The notes under the pieces are model-generated. The model did not search any database. It worked only from the letters and a program-made list of their open reading frames with translations, and had not been told where the DNA came from. From a virus, in the IMG/VR virus record IMGVR_UViG_3300034073_003741, positions 1-64,000 of that record: a DNA stretch of 64,000 nucleotides; one strand, written 5' to 3'. This document shows positions 369 to 63,506 of the stretch, piece after piece (positions within the stretch are counted from its first letter, which is position 1; every line of letters begins with the position of its first letter). The translations under genes and the position numbers were made by a program.

Positions 369-3300
369 ATGATTCCATCTACCCAAAATAAATTATTAGT
401 AACTGAAGATTGGAAAAAGATTTATCAATCTTTCAGAAATGCCGATTTTAAGAGTTATGATTTCGAAACTCTTAGAAGAACAATGGTGCAATATCTTCAG
501 CAAAATTATCCTGAAGATTTTAATGACTTTATAGATTCAAGTGAATATATTGCACTTATTGATTTAATTGCGTATTTGGGACAGAATTTAAGTTTTAGAA
601 TTGATTTAAACGCTAGAGAAAATTTTTTAGAAACTGCACAACGTAGAGATAGCATTTTAAGACTAGCACAATTGATAAGTTATATACCTAAAAGAAATGT
701 GCCCGCGAGTGGATTTTTAAAGTTAACATCAGTATCTACAACTGATTCAGTTATTGATGCTTCTGGAATAAATTTAGCAAATTCTTATATAAATTGGAAC
801 GATCCTTCTAATTTAAATTGGTATCAACAATTTATAACGATCCTTAATTCTGCCATGAGTGGTACTTTCTCTTTTGGTAAACCATATGATAGAAGTATTG
901 TTGGTGGTATTTTAACAGAACAATATAGAATTAATAGTTCAAATACTGATGTTCCTATATTTTCATTTACAAAAAATGTAAATGGTATTAACATGGAATT
1001 TGAAATTGTCCCATGTTCATTTAGTAATTCTACTTCAGTGTATGAAGAAACACCAAAACCAAATACTACATTCAGCTTGTTATTTAGAAATGATAATCAA
1101 GGATCAAGTAGTTCAAATACTGGATTTTTCGTATTATTTAAACAGGGTTCATTGGGATTAACCAATTTTACTTTAGATACTCCAGTCCCTAATGAAATAG
1201 TTGGAGTAAACATAACAAACATTAATGATACTGATGTATGGTTATGGCAATTAGACTCAAATGGAAATTATGATACATTGTGGAAAAAAGTGCCCGCTAT
1301 AGCAGGCAATAATATAATATACAATAGTTTAAACAAAAACGAACGAAAGATTTATAGTGTTACATCCCGTGATTTAGATCAAGTTGATTTAAACTTTGCT
1401 GATGGAAGTTTTGGTGATTTACCAAAAGGATCATTTAGAGTATTTTACAGACAAAGTAATGGTTTGACATATACTATAAAACCTGAACAAATGTCAGGTA
1501 TACAAATAGAAATTCCATATTTTAATAAATCTGGGCAAAGTCATACATTAACGATGATATTATCATTACAATATAATATTAATAACAGTTCTGGTGCAGA
1601 GAGTAATCAAAGTATACAAAATAAAGCCCCGCAGTCATATTATACTCAAAATAGAATGGTTACTGCGGAAGATTATAATATTGCTCCATTGACGGTTGCT
1701 AATGATATATTAAAAGTTAAAAGTGTAAATAGAATTTCAAGTGGAATTAGTAAATTTTATGATTTGAATGATTCAACTGGTAGATTTGGTAATACAAATA
1801 TATTTGCATCTGACGGTATAATATATAAAGATCAAAAAGAATCTAATTTTACTTTTGAATTTATTAATAGAAATGAAATTTATGAAGTAATTAAAAGTAA
1901 ATTAGCTCCTATAATTTCTTCAAAAGAACTTAGATCTTTCTATTTGGAAAATTATGATAGGATTGATTTAACATCACTTAATATTACTTGGAATCAAGTG
2001 ACAAAAACAGCTAGTGAATCTAATGGTTATTTTGAAGATACAACTCAAGTTCCTTCACCAATTAATATAGGTTCATTTGGCATAAACAATTTAAGATATA
2101 TTACTGATGGTGCGTTGGTTAAATTTATAGCACCAAAAACAAATACGGGACAAGATCAGTTTTTTTCTGCATCTGGATCTATAGTTTCTACACAAACAAA
2201 TAAAACTAAAAATTATATATGGGCTAAAGTTGTTCAAGTTATAGGTGATGGATCTAATGGTGGTCAAGGAACGTTGGATAATGGAACGGGTCCAGTAAAA
2301 TTTAGCGAAGTAATACCAACTGGTGCTATACCAACTTTAGTTATACCTAAATTTGTGGATAGTTTATCATTTGCTTTTGAAACAGAATTGATAAATCTGT
2401 GCTTAAATCAAAGAAATTTTGGAATTACTTTTAATAGAATTTCAAGAACTTGGAATATTATTTTAGATACTAATTTAGATATAGCCAATCCATTTAGTTT
2501 AGTATATCAAGGAAATATTGACAATACCAATAAAGATTCCAGTTGGGTTATAGCATTTATTTGGAATGGTATAAATTATACAGTTCGACATAGATTTATA
2601 GAATTTATTTTCGAAAGTGAAAAAGAAACAACGTTTTTCATAGATGATAGTAATACAAATTATGATTTTATAAGCAATAAATTGATTAAAGATAAAATTG
2701 ATATATTATCATTTAATAATTCAGTTACTCCGATACTTGCGGCAAATACAGCCACTTTTGGTAGTTTAGGAAAAGACTATTCATGGCAAATTGATGGGTC
2801 AATTGTAGAACCTGATGGGTATGTTAATAATAAAAAAATAAAAATAAGTTTTTATGATTTTAATAACTATGGGCAAATTCTAGATCCAGATTCATTTAAT
2901 AATGTGGTAGAACCATTAACAACCAGCACTACTACTGGGTTTAATGATAAATTTGTATATTTCAAAAAATTATCTGATGGATTAAGATATCAATTAATTG
3001 ATGAAGATATTCAGGCATATCCTACTCCAAGTGATATTATTGGTATACCAAGTACAAGTACATTATATTATTTTTATAATCCATCATACAATGTTGTCAA
3101 AAAATATGATGAGAATGTTTCAAATTTATCAGATCCATGGATATTGCAATCTGATTATTTTGCATATCCAGGAAGGACTGACTTAAAATTTCATTATGTT
3201 CATAACAGCAGCGATGAAAGAAGAATAGATCCTAGTAAGAGTAATATAATAGATATATACTTGTTAACTTCTGATTATGATAGGGAATATAGAAGTTGGC

Positions 3301-3824
3301 TACTATCCGGTCAGGGTAATGAACCATTGGCTCCTACTGTTCAAAGTTTAGAACAAAATTATTCTTCATTTTTAGAACCAATAAAAACAATTAGTGATGA
3401 GATAATTTTTCATCCAGTTAAATATAAGGTACTATTTGGTGATAAAGCAGAATCTAATTTAAGAGCGACTTTTAAAGCTGTGAGAAATTCATCTAGATTT
3501 ATAAGTGATAATGAAATAAAAACTAGAATATTAAGTGCAATGCAAGAATTTTTTAGTTTAGAAAATTGGGATTTCGGGCAAACTTTTTATTTCAGTGAAT
3601 TATCAACCTATGTTATGAATTTGCTTACTCCAGATATTTTGAATTTCATAATAGTTCCAAAAGGTAATTTTAATTTTGGAAGTTTATATGAGATTACATG
3701 TTTAAGTAATGAAATATTTGTAAATGGTGCAACAGTATTTGATATTGAAATAATTGATGCAATAACAGCATCACAGTTAAAAACTACTTCTATAATTACG
3801 GATAGCGGAATTAATAATGTCTAA
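369..3824 (+). CDS. 6: Baseplate wedge protein, gp6-like
   Basis: Baseplate J/gp6-family wedge protein; in T4 gp6 dimers form the inner ring that holds the baseplate dome together. The N-terminal block at about residues 35-115 (LRRTMVQYLQQNYPEDF, then the SSEYIALIDLIAYLGQ and RRDSILRLAQLISYIPKR stretches) and the C-terminal block near 1040-1100 (FISDNEIKTRILSAMQEFF, FSELSTYVMNLL) are typical. At 1151 residues it is far longer than T4 gp6 (660); the extra length is a Ser/Asn/Thr-rich beta-type central region, as in aquatic T4-like phages. It overlaps the next gene by 8 bp (stop TAA inside its first codons), which suggests coupled translation. Confidence 0.88.
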   Translation: MIPSTQNKLLVTEDWKKIYQSFRNADFKSYDFETLRRTMVQYLQQNYPEDFNDFIDSSEYIALIDLIAYLGQNLSFRIDLNARENFLETAQRRDSILRLAQLISYIPKRNVPASGFLKLTSVSTTDSVIDASGINLANSYINWNDPSNLNWYQQFITILNSAMSGTFSFGKPYDRSIVGGILTEQYRINSSNTDVPIFSFTKNVNGINMEFEIVPCSFSNSTSVYEETPKPNTTFSLLFRNDNQGSSSSNTGFFVLFKQGSLGLTNFTLDTPVPNEIVGVNITNINDTDVWLWQLDSNGNYDTLWKKVPAIAGNNIIYNSLNKNERKIYSVTSRDLDQVDLNFADGSFGDLPKGSFRVFYRQSNGLTYTIKPEQMSGIQIEIPYFNKSGQSHTLTMILSLQYNINNSSGAESNQSIQNKAPQSYYTQNRMVTAEDYNIAPLTVANDILKVKSVNRISSGISKFYDLNDSTGRFGNTNIFASDGIIYKDQKESNFTFEFINRNEIYEVIKSKLAPIISSKELRSFYLENYDRIDLTSLNITWNQVTKTASESNGYFEDTTQVPSPINIGSFGINNLRYITDGALVKFIAPKTNTGQDQFFSASGSIVSTQTNKTKNYIWAKVVQVIGDGSNGGQGTLDNGTGPVKFSEVIPTGAIPTLVIPKFVDSLSFAFETELINLCLNQRNFGITFNRISRTWNIILDTNLDIANPFSLVYQGNIDNTNKDSSWVIAFIWNGINYTVRHRFIEFIFESEKETTFFIDDSNTNYDFISNKLIKDKIDILSFNNSVTPILAANTATFGSLGKDYSWQIDGSIVEPDGYVNNKKIKISFYDFNNYGQILDPDSFNNVVEPLTTSTTTGFNDKFVYFKKLSDGLRYQLIDEDIQAYPTPSDIIGIPSTSTLYYFYNPSYNVVKKYDENVSNLSDPWILQSDYFAYPGRTDLKFHYVHNSSDERRIDPSKSNIIDIYLLTSDYDREYRSWLLSGQGNEPLAPTVQSLEQNYSSFLEPIKTISDEIIFHPVKYKVLFGDKAESNLRATFKAVRNSSRFISDNEIKTRILSAMQEFFSLENWDFGQTFYFSELSTYVMNLLTPDILNFIIVPKGNFNFGSLYEITCLSNEIFVNGATVFDIEIIDAITASQLKTTSIITDSGINNV

Positions 3825-6800
3825 TAAAAAAATAAAATCTGTAAATTTGTTGCCTGAATTTTTAAGAACTGATAAAAATTCAAAATTTTTATCAGGTACT
3901 ATTGATCAATTAATTCAAAAACCGGAAATTGAACGTTTAGATGGATTTATAGGATCTAAACTAACTCCTAATTTTAATTCAAATCAAGATTTTTATATTA
4001 ATGAGAAAGATGTATTAAAATCAAATTATCAATTTGAACCAGCATTAATATTAAAAGATAATTTAAATAATGTTCTTGATACAGTAAGTTATGATGATCT
4101 TATAAATGAAATTAAATTTAATAATGGTGACATTAAAAATTTAAATTCTCTTTTCAATACTGACCATTATTCATTTAATCCATTTATAGATTTTGATAAA
4201 TTTGTAAATTATCAAGATTATTACTGGTTGCCAACAGGACCACAGCCTATAAAAATAGTAGGTCTTATTGCGGATACAACCAGTACATATACAGTAGTAG
4301 ATAATGAGGCATTGACTTCATTTGTATTTACTCCCACTGGTTTAGAGGAAGATCCCATAATAACTTTGTATAGAGGTAATACATATAATTTTGATATAAA
4401 CAGCCAATATCAATTTTATTTAAAAACTCAACCTACTATAAGCGGATCTAGTAATTTGTACAATGAAGGTGTTACCAACAATGGCACTAGTACAGGAATA
4501 TTATCTATAATAATAGATGATAATACTCCAGATCTTTTATATTATGTAGGTAAAGATTCTCCTTCTACTGTAGGAAAAATCATAGTCAAGTCATTTGATG
4601 AAAATTCATTTTTGGATGTAGAAAAAGAAATAGTAGGAAAAAAATATTATAAATCTGGGAATAATATTGAGTTATCAAATGGGATGAAAGTCCGATTTGG
4701 TGGCAGAGTTTATCCTGAAAAATATAGAAATAAAGATTTCTTTGTTGAAGGTGTTGGTAACGAAATAGCTTTAGTTGATTATGAAAAGTTAATTTCAGGT
4801 GATTTTATAGCTGATATATATAATGATAATTTTGATTCAACACCGTTTGATACTTATCCATTTGATTCTTTTAAAAATCTTCCGTTAGATCCTGAATACA
4901 TAACAATAAATCGTTCTAGTAGAGATTTAAATCAATGGTCTAGATATAACAGATGGTTTCATAAAGATATAATTGAACAATCTGCTTTCTACAATAGACA
5001 ATTGCCTGTATTTCCTATTGACAAAAGAGCGGTTCGTCCTATTATTGAATTTAAACCAAATATTAAACTATTTAATTTCGGTATAAACGGAATAGATAAT
5101 GTTGATTATATAGATGTTACCACAACTGATGTCTTTAGTAATGTGGAAGGTTCTGCTGGTTATTATGTTGATCAGGAACTTCTTCAAGAAGGTAATACTG
5201 TAATTTTTAATGAAGATGCAGATCCTTTAGTTCAAGGTAAAATATTTGAAATTCACTATGATTTTGTGGATAATAAAAAAGTTTTAAATTTAATTTTAAA
5301 AGATGATTTGAGTGACAAAATTAGTCCAACAGTTTGTATAAACAGTGGTGCTGAATATACAGGATCAAGTTGGTGGTTTAATGGTACAAAATGGATATAT
5401 GGGCAGCAACATACACAGTTGAATCAAGCTCCATTATTTGATGTATTTGATAATAACGGCGAATCTTATGTTCGTGATGATTCTGACTTTAAAGGAACAA
5501 AATTATTTGGATATTCAGAAGGGAATATTTTTGATAAAATTTTAGGGCTTAACATAAAACTTGAAAATAGTGTAGGTATCGGCAGCTACGTATTCAAAAG
5601 TTATTTAATGACAGATACTTTTAATATTTTTTATAATAATGAAGTAGTAAGGCAATTAAGTACTGAAAATGGGTATCTAAAAGTTACAAATACTAATAAT
5701 ACAGAATTTAAAAATTCATGGGATTCTGCATATGAATACAAATCTCCCATAATACAAAATACGGGTGTAGCTTCTAGTACATCTTCAGTTCTTATTGATT
5801 CGGTTAATTTTATTAGTAATGAAACTATATTAGTAAATGCATACTTAAATAATAAAAAAGTAGATAAAACAGAGTATGAAATAGTAAATGTTAATAAATC
5901 AAAATATATTAATTTTACAAATACCGTATCAACAAATACAAGTCTTTTACTAAAAATATTTACGTCAGATACTCCTAAAAATAATGGATATTACGAAACA
6001 CCCCTAAGTTTATCTAATAATCCTAATAATACTGCTATTAATGAATTAACATTAAGTGAAATCAGCGATCACTTAAAATCTGCTATTGAAAATGTTAATA
6101 ACAATAGTACTTATAAATTAAGAGATATAAGTGATATTAATTTGTATGCAAATAGAATAATTGCATCTAAAAATCCTATTGTTTTTTCTGAATTTTTTAT
6201 TGGTAAAAAAGAAAATAGTATATTAGATGCGATAGATTTTTGTGATTTGCAATATTCACAATTCAAGATGGCTTTATTAAAATCAATATCTGAAATATCG
6301 GATGAAACTACGCCTAGTAAAATTTTAGATAAAGCTTTAAAAAATATAAATCAGAATAAAGATTTAAAAAGTCCTTTTTACTACTCTGATATGTTGGGTT
6401 ATGGTTCAGATGTAGTTTCAAAAAAATATAGAGTTGTGGATACAATTAATAATGTATTTCCGATACCTATAAATTTTAATTTAGATAATCTGAGTTTACA
6501 AAGTATTTTAATATATAAAAATGGAACTCAATTAATCAATGAAACAGAGTACAAATTTATTAATGATGAATCTATAGAAGTGCTAGTAGATTTAGTATCT
6601 GGTGACGAAATAGAAATAGTATTTTACAGTAATACTGAAGGGTGTTATATACCACCAACCCCAACAAAATTAGGATTATATCCTAATTTTGAACCAAAAT
6701 TTTTATATGATAGTACATATATTGATGGGGAAACAAAGGTAATTCAAGGTCATGATGGTAGTATAACAATAGCGTTTAATGACTATAGAGATGATGTATT

Positions 6801-26050: not shown

Positions 26051-27133
26051 TCAATTTTCCATTGCTTGGACGATGAACTTACCGTATTTTGAATGGAATT
26101 CATCAAAATTAGTAAGTTTACCGGCGTCGAATGGAAGTTCGTAAGTACTTAGTGCAGTTTTTGCCCCCATAACTACTAGCTCGGTTGGGAAATTTTTCAT
26201 CATGAACCCAAAGAAATTATCGGCCATTTCATCCCAGTTCTTAACCTTTTTAAGGTTAGCTGACTTTAGTTCATAACACAGGCTGATAGTCAAAGAATAC
26301 ATTGCTGAAATTTCCTTGATATCACACTTTTTGATCTTACCAGAAAGCACTAGTTCTGGATTTGGCATTTGTTTAGCAACCTTTCGGTGAGCCATAAACT
26401 TAACAGCTAGTCCTTCGCCTACTGCACCTGACACTAGATCATTTAGTGTTTTATCTGAAATATCATCATCGTTTAGAAGTTCACTTACGAAGCTCCATGA
26501 ACGGGGTGTTGCAAAGCTCTTGCTGGGTGACTTTGGATCAAAGTCATAAAGATCTTGTTTTGCAAACCCAATATATCCCACGACTTGTTCATGGACATTG
26601 TTAGTAACAGCCCACTTGTGCCAATCATCATAATCAACACGTAGTTCAATATGAATAAAACGGTTTGCCAAAGGAGCAGGCATTCTATAAGTTACACCCT
26701 TATCTGTTTCTCGATTTCCAGCTGCAATAATACTTACATTACGTGGAAGTTCATATGTTCCGACTCTACGATTCAGAATAAGCTGATATGCGGCAGCTTG
26801 GGTAGCGGGTGCAGCAGAATTTAGCTCGTCAAGAAATAGGATGCTGTTGTCTTCAGGGTCAGTTGGAAACTCAAGTGGTGGAGCCCACGCCATAGTATTG
26901 CTTAATGAATTATAATATGGAATTCCCTTGATATCAGTTGGTTCCCATAGAGACAAACGAACATCGATTACTTTACGATTTTGTTCGTTGCCAATCTGCT
27001 TTACGATATCACTCTTACCGATACCAGGAGGCCCCCACATAAAAACAGGACGGCTACTTTTCATACACTTTGTAATTGCTGTTTTAGCTTCATTTGGGCC
27101 AAGGGTGCGGGAAACAATGTTTTTTTCTGCCAT
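26051..27133 (-). CDS. MoxR-family AAA+ ATPase
   Basis: A 360-residue MoxR-like ATPase, usually a hexameric chaperone acting with a VWA protein, which follows it here. Visible: Walker A GPPGIGKS at 34-41, Walker B ILFLDEL at 98-104, sensor region VSIIAAGNRE, and APLANRFIHIEL carrying the Arg-finger position. The C-terminal lid domain holds LKKVKNWDEMADNFFGFMMK. First gene of the operon through thyA; a sigma70-like promoter at 27186-27214 precedes it, followed by a 5'-leader hairpin. In phages the target is unknown; head or tail assembly or host takeover are both possible. Confidence 0.88.
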   Translation of the reverse strand: MAEKNIVSRTLGPNEAKTAITKCMKSSRPVFMWGPPGIGKSDIVKQIGNEQNRKVIDVRLSLWEPTDIKGIPYYNSLSNTMAWAPPLEFPTDPEDNSILFLDELNSAAPATQAAAYQLILNRRVGTYELPRNVSIIAAGNRETDKGVTYRMPAPLANRFIHIELRVDYDDWHKWAVTNNVHEQVVGYIGFAKQDLYDFDPKSPSKSFATPRSWSFVSELLNDDDISDKTLNDLVSGAVGEGLAVKFMAHRKVAKQMPNPELVLSGKIKKCDIKEISAMYSLTISLCYELKSANLKKVKNWDEMADNFFGFMMKNFPTELVVMGAKTALSTYELPFDAGKLTNFDEFHSKYGKFIVQAMEN

Positions 27134-41402: not shown

Positions 41403-41828
41403 TCACCATGCTCGACATGACCAAAATTTGGCTTTCCATCTTGGACCCGGGTTAGCACAATTATGTCTTGCTCTAAAACTCTTACGGCGTTTAGGATTAG
41501 ATTTTTTAATCCTCATTTTTTTGTCACCGAAATTTACTTTTACCACATTTCCTTTTGGTCCCTTGACGTAAACTTTGCTTTTCTTAACGTCACCTTTCAT
41601 TGGTTTACCTAAAGGTACTTTTCTTCCTTGGTACTCGGCTTCGTTAATAGTTTCCAATGGGAGGTATGATAACCCAGTATCGTCAATAGAAATGACAACT
41701 CCATCAGTAGTGAAATCTATGATGGATGTTTCTATGAGAATATTGTCTAATTCAAGATGAAATACATCACCTATAGACATAGATTCCTCTAAGGAGGATG
41801 GATCAAGTACTAAATCACTAATTTTCAT
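41403..41828 (-). CDS. Conserved phage basic protein, probable processed head protein
   Basis: A 141-residue protein. Residues 1-60 are acidic (MKISDLVLDPSSLEESMS, DGVVISIDDTGL), then LETINEAEYQG offers an I-N-E site of the kind cut by the T4 prohead protease, and the last 80 residues are strongly basic (KKSNPKRRKSFRARHNC, PRWKAKFWSCRAW). The basic end is a conserved-looking phage motif. An acidic propeptide plus basic mature part fits an internal head protein; this remains inference. Confidence 0.62.
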   Translation of the reverse strand: MKISDLVLDPSSLEESMSIGDVFHLELDNILIETSIIDFTTDGVVISIDDTGLSYLPLETINEAEYQGRKVPLGKPMKGDVKKSKVYVKGPKGNVVKVNFGDKKMRIKKSNPKRRKSFRARHNCANPGPRWKAKFWSCRAW

Positions 41829-41849
41829 AATTGTATACCCTATTACAAT

Positions 41850-41857
41850 TATTTAGT
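41850..41857 (-). promoter_or_regulatory. Late-promoter-like octamer ACTAAATA
   Basis: 21 bp before the ATG at 41828, with a possible AGGG ribosome-binding site between. Confidence 0.3.
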
Positions 41858-41871
41858 GATTTTAATATTTT

Positions 41872-42276
41872 TTAATGATTATACAATATTGACTCAACTG
41901 AACCATCATTGATATAAACATGTCCTCTTACCCAAACAAAGTTTCCGGTAAAGTTTATTATATCTACAGTAGATGTATTTCTTACATTTAACTCAGTGTA
42001 TGCCACACTTGAATTACTGACGTTGAACCAATCTGAATTGGTCGGTACTGTTGCTAGAGTGGCTTGCATTGTAATAGTACCTGAAAAGTCTTGTGTTGCA
42101 GTGTACATCACGGTATGCAAGCCATCGCTGCCACCAAAATAGCCATCACCTTTGACTTTATCGCTAATAAAAACTATAGCTTCAGTACCAGAATTTGGAT
42201 ATACCACAGCTGTTGTGCTGGTACTAGAAGGAGTATTTAACGGTACAAAGTTTAGAGTTTGACTTAATGCTGGCAT
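41872..42276 (-). CDS. Putative virion structural protein
   Basis: A 134-residue Ser/Thr-rich beta protein (FVPLNTPSSTSTTAVVYP, TQDFSGTITMQATL, FTGNFVWVRGHVYI), the style of small phage decoration or fibre-associated proteins. An exact late octamer lies 7 bp before its ATG, which has no Shine-Dalgarno sequence. Located between the island of basic proteins and clpA. No family recognised. Confidence 0.6.
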   Translation of the reverse strand: MPALSQTLNFVPLNTPSSTSTTAVVYPNSGTEAIVFISDKVKGDGYFGGSDGLHTVMYTATQDFSGTITMQATLATVPTNSDWFNVSNSSVAYTELNVRNTSTVDIINFTGNFVWVRGHVYINDGSVESILYNH

Positions 42277-49538: not shown

Positions 49539-50297
49539 TTGCCTAGAGCCAAAAGAAAAGACAGGGAATTTTTCTTAGAAAAAGACCCAAGATTCATAAA
49601 AAAAGAGCCAAAAGATAATTTAATACAAATTAAATCTTACGTAAAAAGAAATCAAGAAGTTTTAATAATTCCGAGGAGTATAAATCAAGAAACTTATATT
49701 GAGTTACTTAAAAATCAAAAATTATACATAGTTTTTGCAATAGGGCCAGCAGGAACCGGAAAAACTATGTTGGCGGTACAAATGGCTATAAAACAGCTTA
49801 AAGAAGGTTCAATTAAAAAAATAATTGTAACACGCCCAGCTGTCAGTGTTGATGAGGAACATGGATTTTTGCCGGGGACATTAAATCAAAAAATGGAGCC
49901 GTGGACTCGCCCAATTTTTGATGTATTTGAGGAATACTATCACCCTAGAGAAATTCAAGCAATGATCGAAGATGGGATCATTGAAATTGCACCATTAGCA
50001 ATGATGCGAGGTAGAACATTCAAAAATGCATTTATAATAGCAGATGAATGTCAAAATACGTCTACTAGTCAAATGAAAATGTTACTAACTAGAATTGGGG
50101 AAAATTCTAGAATGGTTGTAACAGGGGATCTAAACCAAGCTGATAGACCAAAAGAAAATGGTCTATTAGAATTTTGTAATTTATATGCGAAAGCTACAAA
50201 TTATAAAATGATTGGAATGGTAAAATTTGACGTAAAAGACGTTGAAAGACATCCCGTAGTCAAAGAAATTCTAAAAATTTATAAAGAAGACGTCTAA
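49539..50297 (+). CDS. phoH: PhoH-like ATPase
   Basis: A 252-residue P-loop ATPase of the PhoH family, frequent in marine phages and often assumed to relate to phosphate stress; its biochemical role is not settled. Walker A GPAGTGKT at 69-76, then IIVTRPAVSVDEEHGFLPGT, MRGRTFKNAFIIADECQN (Walker B) and VVTGDLNQADRP. Start is TTG at 49539, fixed by the near-perfect TAGGAGGT 6 bp upstream. The only rightward gene between 22298 and 59497, with its own promoter and a terminator shared with the clamp-loader gene: a free-standing transcription unit. Confidence 0.93.
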   Translation: MPRAKRKDREFFLEKDPRFIKKEPKDNLIQIKSYVKRNQEVLIIPRSINQETYIELLKNQKLYIVFAIGPAGTGKTMLAVQMAIKQLKEGSIKKIIVTRPAVSVDEEHGFLPGTLNQKMEPWTRPIFDVFEEYYHPREIQAMIEDGIIEIAPLAMMRGRTFKNAFIIADECQNTSTSQMKMLLTRIGENSRMVVTGDLNQADRPKENGLLEFCNLYAKATNYKMIGMVKFDVKDVERHPVVKEILKIYKEDV

Positions 50298-53450: not shown

Positions 53451-56400
53451 TTACTCCGATTTATTTTTTAAATTTTCAACTTCATTTATTAATGTTTTTA
53501 ATGCTTCTATTAATAAAGGTATTATTTGCTCATAATTAACTGCTAAGTAACCATCAGTTCTTGTAATAACTGCTTCTGGCAACACATTAACTATTTCTTG
53601 GGCAATTACACCTGCTTGCCTAGTTCTTGTATCTTTATTTACAGCATACTGATTCCAATTATATAAAATTCCGGAAATTTGTTTTATTTTTTCTTTTGCA
53701 TTTGAAATTGTTTCTATATTGGTTTTTAATCTCTTATCTGATGAATAATATGCAACTATGTCTCCACCTGCTCGAATCTCACCTGATGCATATAGGTCTG
53801 ATCCATTGAATTGTAAATTTGAAGAACTTGTTACAGTTCCACCGCTATTATATAATACTTGTCCAGATGAACCAGCGGTTCCTGGTATTCCTGGTGCGCC
53901 GTTTGGTCCTTGTGCACCTGATGGTCCTTGGAATCCTTGTGCTCCTTGGAATCCCTGTGCTCCTTGGGAACCTGGGGAACCTGGTGAACCAGAACCAGTG
54001 AACCCTTGTGCTCCTTGGATACCTTCTGCGCCGGTTGCTCCTTGAAACCCTTGATGTCCCTGTCGTCCTTGGAATCCTTGATGTCCTTGGCTTCCTTGCA
54101 ATCCTTCTGGACCTTGTAATCCTTGTGGTCCTCTAAATCCTTGATGACCCTGTGCCCCTTGGAATCCTTGATTTCCTTGGAATCCTTGATGTCCCTGGAA
54201 TCCTTGTGCCCCACGATCACCCTGAAATCCTTGATGACCTTGATTTCCTTGGAATCCTTGATGACCTTGATTTCCCTGAAATCCACGTGGGCCTTGTGCT
54301 CCTTGAAGTCCCTCTGCGCCCTGACTTCCTTGAAAACCTGCTGGACCTTGTGCCCCTGATCCCGATGGGCCTTGACTACCTTCGGCTCCTTGGAATCCTT
54401 GTGCTCCTTGACTTCCTTGGAACCCTTCTGCACCCTGAACACCTTGAACGCCTACCCCACTATCACCTTGAGTTCCTTGGAATCCTTGTGCTCCTTGACT
54501 TCCTTGAAATCCTGGTAATCCACGTGAACCCTGTGCACCTTGTAATCCTGGTGGACCATCTCCTCCTAATATACCTTGTTGTCCTTGAATTCCAGTTGAT
54601 CCTTGAAAACCCTGATGTCCTTGATTTCCTTGGAAACCTTGGTGTCCCTGGAATCCCTGTGCGCCTTGTGGGCCTTCGCCACCAGCACCTTGTGTTCCTT
54701 GGAATCCTTGTGCTCCTTGGAAACCCTGATTTCCTTGGAATCCTTGATGTCCTTGGAATCCCTGTGCACCTTGGAATCCTCCTTCGCTCGGTGCACCTTG
54801 TGTTCCTTGGAATCCCTGTGCACCTTGGAATCCCTGATGTCCTTGATTTCCTTGAAAACCTTGTGATCCTTGTACGCCATTAAAACCTTGAGCACCTTGT
54901 AACCCGGGTGCACCTCTAAGTCCTTGTGCTCCTTGGAAACCTTGATGACCTTGGAAACCTTGATGACCCTGAGTTCCTTGAAAACCTTGGTGACCTTGGA
55001 ATCCTTGGTGACCTTGAAAACCTTGTGCGCCTTGTGGCCCATCGCCCCCAGCACCCTGAGTTCCTTGAAATCCTTGTGCTCCTTGAATTCCATCATGTCC
55101 TTGGAAGCCTTGGTGTCCTTGGAAGCCTTGGTTTCCTTGAAATCCTTGCGCCCCTTGGAAACCTTGATGTCCTTGAAAACCTTGATGTCCTTGAAAACCT
55201 TGATGTCCTTGGAATCCTTGTGTCCCTTGGAAACCTTGATGTCCTTGGAATCCTTGCGCTCCCTGTCCTCCAGCGCCCTGTGTTCCTTGGAATCCTTGTG
55301 CTCCTTGGATTCCATCATGACCTTGGAATCCTTGTGCTCCTTGGAATCCCTGTGCTCCTTGGAATCCTTGTGCTCCTTGAATACCATCATGTCCTTGTGT
55401 TCCTTGGAAACCCTGATGACCTTGATGTCCTTGGAATCCTTGTGCTCCTTGAACTCCATCTACTCCTTGTGCGCCTTGTGGTCCTTCGCCTCCAGCACCT
55501 TGTGTTCCTTGGAATCCTTGGTGGCCTTGATTTCCTTGGAATCCTTGCGCCCCTTGAATGCCTTCTATTCCTTGTGCTCCTTGGAATCCCTGATGTCCTT
55601 GGAATCCTTGCGCTCCTTGAATACCTTCTACACCTTGTGTTCCCTGAAATCCCTGATGACCTTGATTTCCTTGGAATCCTTGTGCGCCTTGAATACCAGT
55701 AAATCCTAATTCTCCCTGTGATCCTTGATTTCCTTGGAATCCTTGATGTCCCTGAAAACCTTCTAAACCTTGTGCGCCCTGTGGTCCTTGTCCCCCAGCC
55801 CCTTGTGTACCTTGGAATCCTTGTGCCCCTTGAATTCCTGCTAAACCTTGATCCCCTTGAATGCCAGTTGCACCTCGAAATCCTTGCGCCCCTTGAAAAC
55901 CTTGCGCACCTTGAATTCCATCTGATCCAGGTCCACCACCTATACCCTGTGTTCCTTGAAATCCTTGTGCTCCTTGGAAGCCTTGCGCTCCTTGTATTCC
56001 TGTTTCGGCAGGTAAACCTTGTGCTCCTTCAAGTCCTTGATGCCCCTGTGTTCCTTGGAATCCTTGCGCACCTTGTGTTCCGGAACCACCACCTACGACG
56101 TATAGCTCTCCATTTTTATAGATGTCTCCACCTATATGGATATCTTTGCCTATACCAACCCCACCTGTTACAATTAATCCTCCAGTAGTAGTACTTATTG
56201 CATTGGTTGAAGTTGTTACTTTTAATATGGGTGTTAATAATGTTTTTGAATCGCTTTGAAATATTAAAGAAGAATCTGAGACTGGGGTTACATAATCATT
56301 GATTCCAATAGCCATTGTTGGATAATATTCTGAAATATTATCCGAAGAAGTTATAAATGATTTGTCTGATTTATCTGCTCTTCCAACAAAAATCGTAGAA

Positions 56401-56987
56401 GTTGACACCCATGTAGCAGTATTACCTTCTGATTTTAATATATAATTTTGTGGACCTATATTAATGAATGCAGTTACATCAGTATCTACTTGTATTGGAA
56501 TGGAGCCTTGCGAACCACCTTGAATATTTGGAAATACTGTAGCCGTTGGACCTTGTGATCCTTGTACCCCAGCTACACCTTGAGAACCTTGAACACCTTG
56601 TGCTCCTTGTACGCCTTGTGTTCCTTGTACACCCGATGTTCCCTGAACACCTTGTGCTCCTTGTACGCCTTGTGTTCCCTGAACACCTTGTGCCCCTTGA
56701 ACACCCTGTGAACCCGGTCCTCCACTTGATCCAGTTTCTCCTTGAACTCCTTGATGGCCTTGAACTCCTTGATGACCTTGAACCCCTTGTGCTCCTTGGA
56801 CTCCCTGACTTCCTTGGATACCTTGTGGACCAGCAGGACCAACTGTATCTAACAATAATCTGGCGCGTGAAACCGTTAGTTTTTGTTCAACTCCAGAATC
56901 TGCAACAATAAAAAGGGTTTCTCCTTCAGTTGGATTGGTTAAACCTGGATCTTGTAGAACTTGCGATAATGGGGCTCTTGTTGTCAT
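53451..56987 (-). CDS. Collagen-like tail fibre with S74 intramolecular chaperone domain
   Basis: A 1178-residue fibre. Residues 1-48 form an attachment domain (ETLFIVADSGVEQKLTVSRA). Residues 50-150 are Gly-X-Y collagen repeats mainly GVQGAQ/GVQGTQ, 150-300 a globular beta-domain, 300-1040 a second collagen tract of GFQGHQ/GAQGFQ units with Gln in nearly every Y position. The final 97 residues are a peptidase-S74 chaperone domain starting SSDKRLKTNIETI, with the Ser-Asp/Lys self-cleavage site at about 1082, and AGVIAQEIVNVLPEAV. Trimeric collagen-like shafts are expected to be long and thin; the S74 domain trimerises the fibre and then cuts itself off. Confidence 0.92.
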   Translation of the reverse strand: MTTRAPLSQVLQDPGLTNPTEGETLFIVADSGVEQKLTVSRARLLLDTVGPAGPQGIQGSQGVQGAQGVQGHQGVQGHQGVQGETGSSGGPGSQGVQGAQGVQGTQGVQGAQGVQGTSGVQGTQGVQGAQGVQGSQGVAGVQGSQGPTATVFPNIQGGSQGSIPIQVDTDVTAFINIGPQNYILKSEGNTATWVSTSTIFVGRADKSDKSFITSSDNISEYYPTMAIGINDYVTPVSDSSLIFQSDSKTLLTPILKVTTSTNAISTTTGGLIVTGGVGIGKDIHIGGDIYKNGELYVVGGGSGTQGAQGFQGTQGHQGLEGAQGLPAETGIQGAQGFQGAQGFQGTQGIGGGPGSDGIQGAQGFQGAQGFRGATGIQGDQGLAGIQGAQGFQGTQGAGGQGPQGAQGLEGFQGHQGFQGNQGSQGELGFTGIQGAQGFQGNQGHQGFQGTQGVEGIQGAQGFQGHQGFQGAQGIEGIQGAQGFQGNQGHQGFQGTQGAGGEGPQGAQGVDGVQGAQGFQGHQGHQGFQGTQGHDGIQGAQGFQGAQGFQGAQGFQGHDGIQGAQGFQGTQGAGGQGAQGFQGHQGFQGTQGFQGHQGFQGHQGFQGHQGFQGAQGFQGNQGFQGHQGFQGHDGIQGAQGFQGTQGAGGDGPQGAQGFQGHQGFQGHQGFQGTQGHQGFQGHQGFQGAQGLRGAPGLQGAQGFNGVQGSQGFQGNQGHQGFQGAQGFQGTQGAPSEGGFQGAQGFQGHQGFQGNQGFQGAQGFQGTQGAGGEGPQGAQGFQGHQGFQGNQGHQGFQGSTGIQGQQGILGGDGPPGLQGAQGSRGLPGFQGSQGAQGFQGTQGDSGVGVQGVQGAEGFQGSQGAQGFQGAEGSQGPSGSGAQGPAGFQGSQGAEGLQGAQGPRGFQGNQGHQGFQGNQGHQGFQGDRGAQGFQGHQGFQGNQGFQGAQGHQGFRGPQGLQGPEGLQGSQGHQGFQGRQGHQGFQGATGAEGIQGAQGFTGSGSPGSPGSQGAQGFQGAQGFQGPSGAQGPNGAPGIPGTAGSSGQVLYNSGGTVTSSSNLQFNGSDLYASGEIRAGGDIVAYYSSDKRLKTNIETISNAKEKIKQISGILYNWNQYAVNKDTRTRQAGVIAQEIVNVLPEAVITRTDGYLAVNYEQIIPLLIEALKTLINEVENLKNKSE
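53860..56090 (-). repeat. Tandem collagen-coding repeat array
   Basis: About 2.2 kb of imperfect 9- and 18-bp units (codon pattern GGN-NNN-CAA, e.g. GGATTCCAAGG on the coding strand) encoding Gly-X-Gln. The strict 3-base period keeps other frames open on both strands, creating many false reading frames. Prone to length change by recombination. Confidence 0.9.
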
Positions 56988-59496: not shown

Positions 59497-59901
59497 ATGT
59501 TTTCATTTATAAAAAAACTGTTGGGGTTACCAACTGAAGAAGAAAAAAGACTTGCTGAAGAAGCAAAATCGGCTGTTCCTTATAAAGTAGAAGCACCTGT
59601 TACTCCTGTAATTAATAACAAATCGGGAGACACTGTAGATGTTCCAAAAGTTATTGTTCAGCCATTAGTAACTGAAGAAGTTGTAGTTAAATTTGTTGAG
59701 CCAGTAAAAAAAGAAGAACCCGTAATCGTTGAATTACCTAAAGAGGTAGAAGTTCCCACCTTAAAAGAAGAAGTAAAAGCTAAACCAAAAACTAAAAAAG
59801 TAAAAAAAGAAGTGGTTGAAAAAACGGTTGCTGAAAAAGAAAAAGGGGTAGAAAAATCTACCCCTAAGGTTGCAAAAAAATCTAGGTCAAAGAAGTCTTG
59901 A
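59497..59901 (+). CDS. Low-complexity Lys/Glu/Val/Pro protein with basic tail
   Basis: A 134-residue protein. N-terminus MFSFIKKLLGLPTEEEKRLA is an amphipathic helix; the rest is Val/Pro/Glu/Lys-rich disorder (PVKKEEPVIVELPKEVEVPT, KAKPKTKKVKKEVVEKTVAE) ending in a histone-like KVAKKSRSKKS. It could coat DNA or act as a membrane-associated linker; no family recognised. Its 3' part contains a terminator for the convergent operon, and the last 15 bp overlap the end of the gene on the other strand. Confidence 0.6.
   Translation: MFSFIKKLLGLPTEEEKRLAEEAKSAVPYKVEAPVTPVINNKSGDTVDVPKVIVQPLVTEEVVVKFVEPVKKEEPVIVELPKEVEVPTLKEEVKAKPKTKKVKKEVVEKTVAEKEKGVEKSTPKVAKKSRSKKS
59844..59865 (-). terminator. Intrinsic terminator embedded in a convergent gene
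   Basis: Read leftward: AGGGGTAGA-TTTT-TCTACCCCT, a perfect 9-bp stem with 4-nt loop, followed by TTTTCTTTTTC. It ends the leftward uvsE operon 22 bp past the last stop codon, yet lies inside the rightward 134-residue gene, where it encodes a KGVEKSTP stretch. Confidence 0.8.
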
Positions 59902-60099
59902 ATTTAATTTTTCAAAAGCTTGGTTGAGTTCATTGAATTTATGCGTATATAATGTTTCTAACCCAATTAGAATATTTAAAATTTGATCTTCATCGTAATC
60001 AGTATCAAAAACTCTACTGAAAGTTTTTAGATCATCAATTATATGTTCGCATGATTTAATATTATTTTTTAATTCGTTTAATAAAATTTTATTAGTCAT
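59887..60099 (-). CDS. Hypothetical small helical protein
   Basis: A 70-residue protein from the ATG at 60099 behind GGAAAAA; the frame extending to a TTG at 60132 runs through the old uvsE end and is not needed. Helical and acidic (NKILLNELKNNIKSCEHIID, DEDQILNILIGLETLYTHKF). Its start overlaps the vestigial uvsE stop (ATGACTAA), which shows it was once translationally coupled to uvsE. Function unknown. Confidence 0.62.
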   Translation of the reverse strand: MTNKILLNELKNNIKSCEHIIDDLKTFSRVFDTDYDEDQILNILIGLETLYTHKFNELNQAFEKLNSRLL

Positions 60100-60157
60100 A
60101 TAATTTTTCCTTTTTGGATAGATATGTTTCAAACAGTTTAAAGCTTGCTAAGTTTTT
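60092..60157 (-). pseudogene. Displaced original 3' end of uvsE
   Basis: Reads KNLASFKLFE then TYLSKKEKLYD and stop in one frame. The first ten codons repeat codons near the end of the intact uvsE (60874-60903) with six base differences, all silent. Bases upstream are unrelated. It is the leftover C-terminal coding end of uvsE, separated from the gene by the 746-bp GIY-YIG element; there is no start codon. Confidence 0.8.
60128..60157 (-). repeat. 30-bp diverged direct repeat, copy A (element junction)
   Basis: Left junction of the GIY-YIG element; pairs with 60874-60903 at 24 of 30 bases, encoding the identical decapeptide KNLASFKLFE. Confidence 0.8.
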
Positions 60158-60165
60158 GATAAATA
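60158..60165 (+). promoter_or_regulatory. Late-promoter-like octamer GATAAATA at element edge
   Basis: First bases of the inserted segment; points towards the endonuclease gene and predicts a leader of about 60 nt. Confidence 0.35.
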
Positions 60166-60167
60166 AG

Positions 60168-60197
60168 TGTGGGTCACGAGACTGCCATCTCTACCCA
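60168..60197 (+). promoter_or_regulatory. Leader hairpin of the GIY-YIG gene
   Basis: GTGGGT and ACCCAC pair (6 bp), with AGA/TCT pairing possible inside. It lies in the leader between the octamer and the ATG at 60232. Free-standing T4 homing endonuclease genes also have structured leaders; here it does not mask the AGGGG ribosome-binding site directly. Confidence 0.4.
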
Positions 60198-60231
60198 CTC
60201 TAATGCTAGATTTAAATAAAGGGGCATCAGC

Positions 60232-60897
60232 ATGACTATTTATACACATTACGTTTATTGGATACATTTACCAGAACATAACGACCATTATTCTCAGGGG
60301 TATATAGGTGTTTCTAACAACCCAAAACGTAGATTTAGAGAACATCTCAATGTTACAAAATTCATGAACGAGAAAAATCCATTTTTCACCCGAATTTTAC
60401 AAAAATATTCTAATATTCTTGTTCAAACTTTATTATATCAAGGTACTGAAGAGTCTTGTTATCTACTAGAAGAAGAATTTCGTCCAAATAAAAATATAGC
60501 ATGGAATGCTGCAAAAGGAGGATTTAAACCCCCTTCTAAAATAGGCTGGAAACCTACAAAAGAAACTTTATCTAAACGTAGCAACAGTCTTAAAGGAATA
60601 CCTAGAACAGAAGAATGGTGTAATAATCTTTCTTTGGCAAAGCAAGGCCCAAAAAATGGGATGTATGGGAAAAAAATACCATGTCTCGATTCAAGAAAAA
60701 TATTAATTATCCAAACAAAGAATAAAAACAAAATAGATAACTTAATTTTACTTTTTAAACTATTGAATGCAGGTGAATCTATTCGCAATATCTCTAAATC
60801 TACAGAATTCTCTACATCAACGGTTTGTTCTATAAAGAAAAATCCTAAATTACATTTTGAGGCTTTCCCAATACTCAAACAATTTGAAACTTGCTAG
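60232..60897 (+). CDS. GIY-YIG homing endonuclease
   Basis: A 221-residue endonuclease. The GIY-YIG domain spans 1-90: THYVYWIHLP (variant 'GIY'), GYIGVSNNPKRRFREHL ('YIG' and the catalytic Arg), and EEFRPN with the metal-binding Glu. C-terminal DNA-binding modules: NUMOD3-like SLAKQGPKNGMYGKK and a helix-turn-helix-like IRNISKSTEFSTSTVCSIKK. It is encoded antisense to uvsE and overlaps the uvsE 3' end by 48 bp. Flanked by a diverged repeat of uvsE codons, so it is the mobile part of an element inserted in uvsE. Confidence 0.9.
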   Translation: MTIYTHYVYWIHLPEHNDHYSQGYIGVSNNPKRRFREHLNVTKFMNEKNPFFTRILQKYSNILVQTLLYQGTEESCYLLEEEFRPNKNIAWNAAKGGFKPPSKIGWKPTKETLSKRSNSLKGIPRTEEWCNNLSLAKQGPKNGMYGKKIPCLDSRKILIIQTKNKNKIDNLILLFKLLNAGESIRNISKSTEFSTSTVCSIKKNPKLHFEAFPILKQFETC

Positions 60898-61875
60898 ATT
60901 TTTAGCCTTTGCCTCTACCATTACGTCTGCCCATTCCCAATGTGTTTTGGCCCATAAGTTCATAGCAAGATTATGCATGTAATCACTATGGGCTCTTAAT
61001 TTTTGTTTATTGATGCCTCTATCAATTAGCACATCACGGGAGGGAAGTATGTCGGTTGGATGATCAGAAAGAAATTCTTCTCTGGATTGGCTATAATGCA
61101 TAACAGGCCGTAAACCACGCCAACTATTAATAATCATTTTGATACGCGGATCATTTGATGAAATATATTCTCCTTCACGACAATAATTATGATGTATATC
61201 TAAAACAATGGGCAGTAGATCGCCTAGTGTTAGGCATTCATCTAATCCCCATGAGTTTTCTTCATTTTCAATGGTGATTGAATTACGGGCTTCTGGTGAG
61301 AGTCTTTTATAGGCTCTCCTGATACCTTCTGGACCTTCTTTACCCGAGATGTGCACGTTGATCTTGATGTCTTGAAATTGTTTACCAAACCCCATCCACC
61401 GGGCCATATCTGCATGATACTCAAACTCCTCTATACTCTTATTTACAATATCAGGATTATCACTAGCAAGAACAGTAAACTGACCTGGATGGAAAGACAG
61501 TCTAACATTACGATCACGGGCAATGCGCCCGACTTCAGCAAAATGTCTTTCCGCATATTGTTGTACGTCAGGGAGCTTCCAAAAATACCGCCAATTAGAT
61601 TCAGTGTATACAGGTAAAATATCACTTGAGAGGCGGACCATTCTAAGGTGTTGATTTAAATTTCCAACACGGGTTACAAGTTTTTTAACAGATTCGATGT
61701 TACCTTTCATCAAATCCCATAATTTTTCTTCTGCCTTAGACTTAGATTGTCTATTAAGCCATGCTACTGTAGTAGTACCAGTATTGTATTTTTTACAATC
61801 ATCTGATGATTTAATTCCATCAGTTTGATTGGGGTTATCAATCCATTTGCAAGCAAATCCAATACGTTTGATCAT
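60850..61875 (-). CDS. uvsE: UV damage endonuclease UvsE/UVDE, C-terminus rebuilt by insertion
   Basis: A 341-residue TIM-barrel nuclease that nicks 5' to UV photoproducts. Visible metal-site motifs: RIGFACKW at the start, RLSFHPGQFTVLASDNP near 125, NVHISGKEGPEG near 170, ITIENEENSWGL near 195, VLDIHHNYC near 219, PVMHYSQSREE near 255. All are intact, so it should be active. The last residues (after KNLASFKLFE) are YWESLKM, encoded by bases that also form the 3' end of the antisense GIY-YIG gene; the ancestral tail TYLSKKEKLYD lies 0.7 kb away. Ribosome-binding site AAGGAT precedes the ATG. Confidence 0.93.
   Translation of the reverse strand: MIKRIGFACKWIDNPNQTDGIKSSDDCKKYNTGTTTVAWLNRQSKSKAEEKLWDLMKGNIESVKKLVTRVGNLNQHLRMVRLSSDILPVYTESNWRYFWKLPDVQQYAERHFAEVGRIARDRNVRLSFHPGQFTVLASDNPDIVNKSIEEFEYHADMARWMGFGKQFQDIKINVHISGKEGPEGIRRAYKRLSPEARNSITIENEENSWGLDECLTLGDLLPIVLDIHHNYCREGEYISSNDPRIKMIINSWRGLRPVMHYSQSREEFLSDHPTDILPSRDVLIDRGINKQKLRAHSDYMHNLAMNLWAKTHWEWADVMVEAKAKNLASFKLFEYWESLKM
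60874..60903 (-). repeat. 30-bp diverged direct repeat, copy B (in intact uvsE)
   Basis: Right junction of the element; still codes KNLASFKLFE in uvsE. Six silent differences from copy A. Confidence 0.8.
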
Positions 61876-63092: not shown

Positions 63093-63506
63093 TTATTTTG
63101 CTAAATTTAGCAATGTTTTATAATGTTCATATGCTTTTCGTACAGATTCGTTACTGTCTCTAATACGTTTTTCGTTTAAATTCACAAAATATAGTTCTCT
63201 TAATTGCCCATAGTCATGTATGATCATCTCAACTGAGTTTAGTCCTGTGAAATTCTTTAGATTTTCGAGATCAACATGTTCGTCTGCCAACTGTTCAAAC
63301 TCCACTATTGGCATGGTAATCTCCACTGCTTCAACACTGTCAATCTTTGTAATGGCGTAGGTAGACAAATAATCTTCGTAAGGATTGTAGGTGTTAGGAA
63401 CTAATGATGGATTGTTATGCACGTACATCCTCTTATCATATTTGACGGAACCGTAATAACGATTTAAAAATGATTTAACTGATTTTGATTTTTCAATATG
63501 TTTCAT
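63093..63506 (-). CDS. Hypothetical protein
   Basis: A 137-residue protein with a basic N-terminus (KHIEKSKSVKSFLNRYYGSV), VEAVEITMPIVEFEQLADEH in the centre, and MIIHDYGQLRELYFVNLNEK. Reads as a soluble alpha/beta domain. Its ATG overlaps the stop of the gene upstream (ATGA). No recognised family. Confidence 0.55.
   Translation of the reverse strand: MKHIEKSKSVKSFLNRYYGSVKYDKRMYVHNNPSLVPNTYNPYEDYLSTYAITKIDSVEAVEITMPIVEFEQLADEHVDLENLKNFTGLNSVEMIIHDYGQLRELYFVNLNEKRIRDSNESVRKAYEHYKTLLNLAK

Follow-up and report, generated by a model that had tools for sequence, protein, structure and literature searches.

A GIY-YIG homing cassette, inserted antisense at the 3' end of phage uvsE, probably supplies the gene with a replacement end

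The window analyzed here is a stretch of 64,000 nucleotides (positions 1 to 64,000) of the 65.7-kb virus record IMGVR_UViG_3300034073_003741. Towards its end, the gene for a UV damage endonuclease (uvsE) overlaps a GIY-YIG nuclease gene on the opposite strand, and codons for the peptide KNLASFKLFE occur both within uvsE and beyond the nuclease gene. The features of the region are as follows.

59887..60099, minus strand: next gene of the original operon, 70 aa, beginning MTNKILLN; an orphan
60092..60127, minus strand: putative remnant of the resident uvsE tail, TYLSKKEKLYD and stop, overlapping the next start codon by 8 nt
60128..60157, minus strand: copy A, KNLASFKLFE codons attributed to the resident uvsE, start-less; predicted insertion point at its 5' edge, 60157/60158
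60158..60231, plus strand: element leader, conserved in all 12 of the 12 leaders, whether of GIY-YIG or of HNH elements, with covariation in the hairpin
60158-60166, plus strand: late-promoter-like box GATAAATAA, within the leader
about 60166-60201, plus strand: leader hairpin, from covariation
60218-60224, plus strand: leader ribosome site AAAGGGG
60232..60897, plus strand (antisense to uvsE): predicted GIY-YIG homing endonuclease gene, 221 aa (PF01541, E = 8.5e-5; PHROG 314; alignment)
60850..60897, both strands: dual-coding overlap of 48 nt, holding the last codons and stop of the nuclease gene and of uvsE
60850..60873, minus strand: probable element-borne UvsE tail YWESLKM and stop (a YW[KE][ST][LV] tail is found in all carriers of orthologous nucleases)
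60874..60903, minus strand: copy B, the KNLASFKLFE codons in use, probably element-carried (sequence comparison)
60850..61875, minus strand: uvsE, UV damage endonuclease of the UvdE family (PF03851, E = 1.5e-42; PHROG 8420)

The C-terminus of UvsE reads AKAKNLASFKLFEYWESLKM followed by a stop codon, i.e., KNLASFKLFE-YWESLKM. Beyond the antisense GIY-YIG gene, a start-less frame (60157-60092, minus strand) reads KNLASFKLFETYLSKKEKLYD and a stop codon, and this stop (60092-60094) overlaps by 8 nt the gene whose ATG lies at 60099. The 30-mers of copy A and copy B differ at six positions, all of them transitions and all silent (P = 0.0016 for six random transitions in the same 30-mer). The duplication, its six silent differences and the antisense nuclease gene in between had been described in a first-pass annotation and were reproduced exactly. 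Given that the coding sequence of copy A is still intact, the two copies diverged while both were coding, and such divergence between the donor and the resident uvsE accounts for the silent differences. When 39 nuclease loci, most of them in other genes, were surveyed, the peptide similarity of the two flanks scored 53 in the window and 25–36 in the other nuclease relatives, with one exception. A flank duplication was seen at two of the 39 loci, namely the window's own element and Methylophilales phage MEP301, so the trait is not general in this nuclease family.

A second record of the same virus (IMGVR_UViG_3300036770_005354; no other was found) is 100% identical over 8 kb and is not independent, so the assembly is not independently confirmed by it; independent relatives do confirm it. 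The possibility that the locus is an assembly chimera or a chance peptide match is negligible in our judgment, because the same architecture recurs in no fewer than six additional, independent groups of contigs obtained from other metagenomes and the similarity of the flanks is far above background. Beyond the virus's own two records the closest UvsE is 72% identical, and a search of viral contigs with the 70-aa MTNK gene returned only itself. Accordingly, a true empty-site sister of the window virus was not found by queries with uvsE, with the 70-aa downstream gene, or in named phages, nor was an element-free allele otherwise identical to the window or an isolate phage with the element.

The codon usage of uvsE is atypical for the genome (GC3 0.30, compared with mostly 0.13–0.23 in other genes; codon score -1.12, near the lowest). 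Deviant codon usage (GC3 0.27–0.31, codon score < -1.05) is common to the window genes at 60850-61875, 26051-27133, 41403-42276, and 63093-63506, which are candidates for recent acquisition. Elsewhere in the window, a 1178-aa gene (53451-56987) has 46% GC against about 30% for the genome and many diverged internal repeats, and a PhoH-like ATPase gene (49539-50297) is the sole plus-strand gene inside a minus-strand block.

The window nuclease matched PF01541 with 23.2 bits, compared with a curated cut-off of 22.6 (25–27 bits for the nucleases of L133 and L208, see below). An alignment of seven orthologs showed Y9, G23-Y24-x-G26, R34, H38, E80, and N92 to be invariant, and we take these residues to have the catalytic roles of their counterparts in I-TevI. 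Judging from this catalytic domain and the conserved positions, the product is predicted to be a GIY-YIG homing endonuclease; a profile search for relatives in the PDB gave none at E up to 1. The nuclease gene and uvsE share the DNA of their last codons, read from opposite strands, and the complete nuclease gene therefore cannot move unless a uvsE 3' end moves with it. This dual-coding overlap is kept in most carriers.

Phage group I introns often house GIY-YIG nucleases, and a group I intron or an intein with the nuclease inside was considered as an explanation. A search for known RNAs, introns included, gave no Rfam match at E up to 1; the nuclease gene is antisense to uvsE, and uvsE is a complete open frame ending inside the element, all of which leaves next to no probability for an intron or intein.

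The 74 nt ahead of the nuclease start are conserved, with [GT]ATAAATA in most leaders followed by a hairpin, AGGAGC, and ATG. The box resembles a T4-type late promoter. Another 11 such boxes occur elsewhere in the window, and the promoter assignment is based on conservation among leaders. In the hairpin, compensatory changes were found at seven of the nine pairs, and 96% of the cells were paired; shuffles reached 78% and slid controls no more than 55%.

A search with the 54 C-terminal residues of UvsE up to KNLASFKLFE brought up L133, whose UvsE ends in KNLASFKLFE-YWKSLEMK. Taken as a natural, element-free tail, YWKSLEMK would have spoken against an imported end. This reading was dropped and reversed, since an HMM scan of the surroundings found the same antisense GIY-YIG gene, 58% identical to that of the window and overlapping the end of uvsE. 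A profile built from the window and L133 nucleases then retrieved L208–L217, with orthologous nucleases (46–64% identical) in six further independent carrier groups, i.e., L208, L209/L210, L211 (the same as L133), L212–L214, L215/L216, and L217. The nuclease gene lies antisense at the uvsE 3' end in all of them, overlapping or abutting it, which bears out the proposal that the element is inserted in uvsE. All six groups also share the YW[KE][ST][LV] tail on uvsE 5' parts from different lineages (the first 135 residues of UvsE are 42–49% identical between L133 and the window), as expected if the new tail travels with the nuclease.

Identity profiles point to recent transfer of the element between phages. 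Between L209 and L211, identity is 92–100% over the leader (from its far end), the nuclease gene, and about 330 bp of uvsE; it falls to 0.6–0.87 (mostly about 0.75) over the remainder of uvsE and to about 0.5 over most of the flanks. L211 and L212 showed the same pattern, the uvsE tract here measuring about 430 bp. Such variation in tract length is consistent with co-conversion in double-strand-break repair, which is known for T4 homing genes (PMC2988022). In trees of 143 UvsE proteins, the carriers were scattered across the whole tree of N-terminal parts, whereas eight of them fell into one 10-member clade in the tree of C-terminal parts, the other two members being carriers of another nuclease type. 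The window and L208 were outside this clade, so their imported tract is short or its donor unsampled; for the window itself, the foreign ancestry of the C-terminus is supported by the short tail only.

These profiles and trees also bear on a second explanation, by which an intergenic homing gene was joined by an unrelated recombination event: a foreign uvsE replaced the whole gene, and copy A is a leftover. The foreign codon usage of the window uvsE would agree with such a replacement, as would the frequency of recombination in uvsE, exemplified by L212 and L213, which differ almost only inside this gene. Left unexplained are the shared 3' tail and nuclease of carriers with unrelated uvsE 5' parts, the far break that always falls at the leader end, and the dual-coding overlap in most carriers, and we consider whole-gene replacement improbable. 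Around 5281-5650, the near-identical phages L212, L213, and L214 have differing uvsE 5' halves (the flanks are near-identical in L212/L213), a difference that represents a separate exchange inside uvsE.

The reading of copy A as the old 3' end of the resident gene gained support from element-free alleles and from other carriers. Homology between the window and L133 stops at TTATTTATC, and copy A of the window starts at the very next base. Copy A plus TYLSKKEKLYD resembles the ends of element-free uvsE genes, and the 8-nt overlap with the next gene is the commonest spacing in element-free relatives. Compared with element-free KNLASFKLYDTYIKK-type ends, copy A and its tail scored 62, and none of 60 shuffles scored as high; the resident remnants of L209, L212, and L217 scored 54, 53, and 51, respectively, again with 0/60 shuffles each. 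Their sequences, each ending in a stop codon, are YKLYEKAKQDGII in L209 and YKLYERAKENGII in L212, compared with a natural FKLYEKAKTHGII in L143, and LYDTYINKEKTNV in L217, compared with LYNTYIKKKVTNV in L191. The L217 remnant together with the next start codon also matched element-free L168 at 50/60 nt. The same shuffle-scored comparison gave only weak remnants in L208, L215, L146, and L149 and none in L211, L139, and L135. The window is thus the freshest, best-preserved fossil among the carriers. Sigma-70-like promoter sequences were noted by eye in the gap between the element and the next gene in L133 (TTGACT and TATGAT), L217 (TTGATT and TACAAT), L208, L209, and L215, and seemed absent in the window, as if in older insertions a promoter had evolved to replace the lost operon transcript.

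The architecture, its recurrence, its transfer, and the fossil 3' ends are established by sequence comparison, and we consider it highly probable that the element is a splicing-free, exon-carrying homing cassette, inserted in reverse at the 3' end of uvsE, which supplies the gene with a replacement end. Such a cassette would have a hard end, formed by a T4-type late promoter followed by the hairpin leader and the GIY-YIG nuclease gene, and a soft end consisting of plain uvsE homology. The nuclease may cut element-free uvsE near the KNLASF codons, and repair from the donor would then combine homologous recombination within uvsE, on one side of the break, with a joining event at the promoter end, on its other side. 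The 5' part of the recipient uvsE would be fused to the donor 3' exon (copy B and YWESLKM), giving a full-length UvsE; the window uvsE would be such a hybrid, with a resident 5' part and a 3' end brought by the element. The recipient's own 3' end (copy A and TYLSKKEKLYD) would remain behind as a dead remnant, within which the next gene still has its ribosome site and start. UvsE would stay whole because the cassette brings an end, and the dual-coding overlap would tie the nuclease gene to the exon.

A further question is how the hybrid gene escapes its own nuclease. Copy A lacks the upstream half, so that a recognition site would be split there, whereas with copy B the coding sequence is continuous again and needs some means of escaping the cut. 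The first-pass annotation had proposed that the carried copy is recoded and probably protects the site from cutting. In a strong form of this proposal, the recoding arose under selection to avoid the nuclease, as in a natural gene-drive rescue copy, and six of its 10 codons do differ, all silently. This proposal did not hold up well: the KNLASFKLFE blocks of L211 and L212 match A and B equally (26/30 to each), so there is no element-specific silent signature, and the L217 block is closer to A. Moreover, silent-only divergence is expected of two coding uvsE lineages, and element-free phages show free variation at the silent sites of their KNLASF-type blocks. The carried tail, which is unlike resident tails, could alone be sufficient for immunity, and the silent differences could still aid against cutting, although related elements have no common silent signature. 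Protection by deliberate recoding need not be invoked, and we consider it unlikely.

The closest known parallels to the exon-carrying cassette are the mORFs of fungal mitochondrial DNA (Allomyces macrogynus atp6; Glomus atp6, atp9, cox2, and nad3), which create hybrid genes; in Glomus and Allomyces a foreign C-terminus is fused to the gene, followed by an endonuclease ORF, with the native C-terminus downstream (PMC3630166). The hybrid is the transcribed form of Glomus atp6 and its C-terminal differences from a close relative are all synonymous, and mobility of the Allomyces mORF through its endonuclease was reported biochemically (PMC3630166). As in these mORFs, an endonuclease ORF lies in the 3' part of uvsE, a foreign C-terminus is carried, and the native one is left downstream. 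The layout with the nuclease ORF between substitute and left-over C-terminus was found in the window, L209, L212, and L217, and a substitute C-terminus of other ancestry is indicated by the L209/L211/L212 profiles and by the N- and C-terminal trees. The mORFs differ in residing in an organelle rather than a phage, in their sense orientation (antisense here), and in their nucleases, which are LAGLIDADG in Glomus atp6 compared with GIY-YIG and HNH at uvsE. Their carried pieces span about 50–240 bp; in the uvsE cassette, the exon is read on the opposite strand as the final codons of the nuclease itself. We regard the uvsE cassette as a phage counterpart that would work like an mORF, with no claim of common descent. 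The first-pass annotation was right that the element is unlike an intron or an intergenic homing gene; the architecture nevertheless has a precedent in the fungal mitochondrial mORFs (PMC3630166).

Free-standing seg and mob homing genes of T4 share with the cassette the GIY-YIG/HNH nucleases, the T4-like phage hosts, late promoters, and flank co-conversion (PMC2988022), and segD is likewise antisense to its neighbours (PMC2988022). They are intergenic and leave the neighbouring frames whole (PMC2988022), whereas the uvsE cassette removes the gene end and supplies a substitute. At uvsE the resident 3' end lies cut off beyond the element, which sets the cassette apart from a plain intergenic homing gene. 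The T4 homing review does not mention duplicated target codons ('duplicat', 0 matches; PMC2988022).

Insertion at a 3' end with provision of a substitute end is also a likeness to integrative elements, some of which restore the 3' end of the tRNA or protein gene they enter. Those elements use an integrase and short att repeats, whereas the uvsE cassette has a homing-type nuclease, no integrase, and hundreds of bp of homology on one side. A phage element of the same kind was not described in the literature searched, which lay outside most subscription journals.

The conserved leader is not confined to the window's kind of nuclease. It also precedes a second kind in L139, L146, L149, and L028 (MTIYYLYVKTH proteins, called GIY-YIG-like by eye, with no Pfam match at the curated cut-off) and an I-TevIII-like HNH nuclease in L135, and all these cassettes lie antisense at uvsE 3' ends. 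The L135 protein is 37% identical to I-TevIII-annotated proteins; I-TevIII itself sits in the nrdB intron, whereas the L135 cassette is intron-free at uvsE and has its leader in common with the GIY-YIG elements. The surroundings of L133 and L139 are nearly identical and their far junction is the same, but their nucleases and uvsE ends differ, as if one cassette had replaced the other through recombination in leader and uvsE. We lean towards the broader reading that phages hold a whole class of homing cassettes that do without splicing and in which different nucleases (GIY-YIG of two kinds and I-TevIII-like HNH) can stand in for one another within a common frame. This frame would start with a late promoter and the conserved hairpin leader and have at its other end a replacement exon of the target gene, antisense and often dual-coding.

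A scan for the leader returned 19 stretches, among them more uvsE insertions (L266, L275). HNH cassettes with the leader were also seen in sense orientation between two other, probably structural, genes (L264, L269, L274); the nuclease end overlaps the next ATG by 4 nt, and no carried gene end was visible in these cassettes. In L149, uvsE has a cassette with this leader on either side (1243-1945 and 2970-3785): one lies upstream of the gene, the other antisense at its 3' end. In L258 and L262 (phage contig IMGVR_UViG_3300027749_002876, 524 kb), the leader precedes what looks like an HNH nuclease gene that starts with TTG.

The flank duplication of phage MEP301 (L088, 2968-3600) lies at a gene start. 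MASIKLQGDTS stands at the start of the related GIY-YIG gene and MASIKLQGDVSG at the start of the tail-fibre gene behind it; seven of the shared codons differ silently, including a TCA/AGT serine, and there is one replacement (T/V). The related phage MEP402 has a homologue of the next gene without the nuclease. The MEP301 arrangement may mirror that at uvsE, with the N-terminal instead of the C-terminal end of a gene being carried; the alternative is a tandem of paralogous tail-fibre genes.

Homing genes are thought to persist in genes by splicing (introns, inteins) or by staying intergenic. The uvsE cassettes would represent a third way in phages, in which the element brings along the piece of the gene that its insertion destroys, and if the class reading is true, a selfish nuclease can live in a useful gene without an intron or intein. 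How an intron-less nuclease spares its host gene becomes a directly testable question, with the cassettes as natural 'cut-and-rescue' examples and the fossil 3' ends as a readable record of where elements entered. Mosaic uvsE genes and overlapping antisense ORFs of environmental phages may likewise be accounted for by such cassettes.
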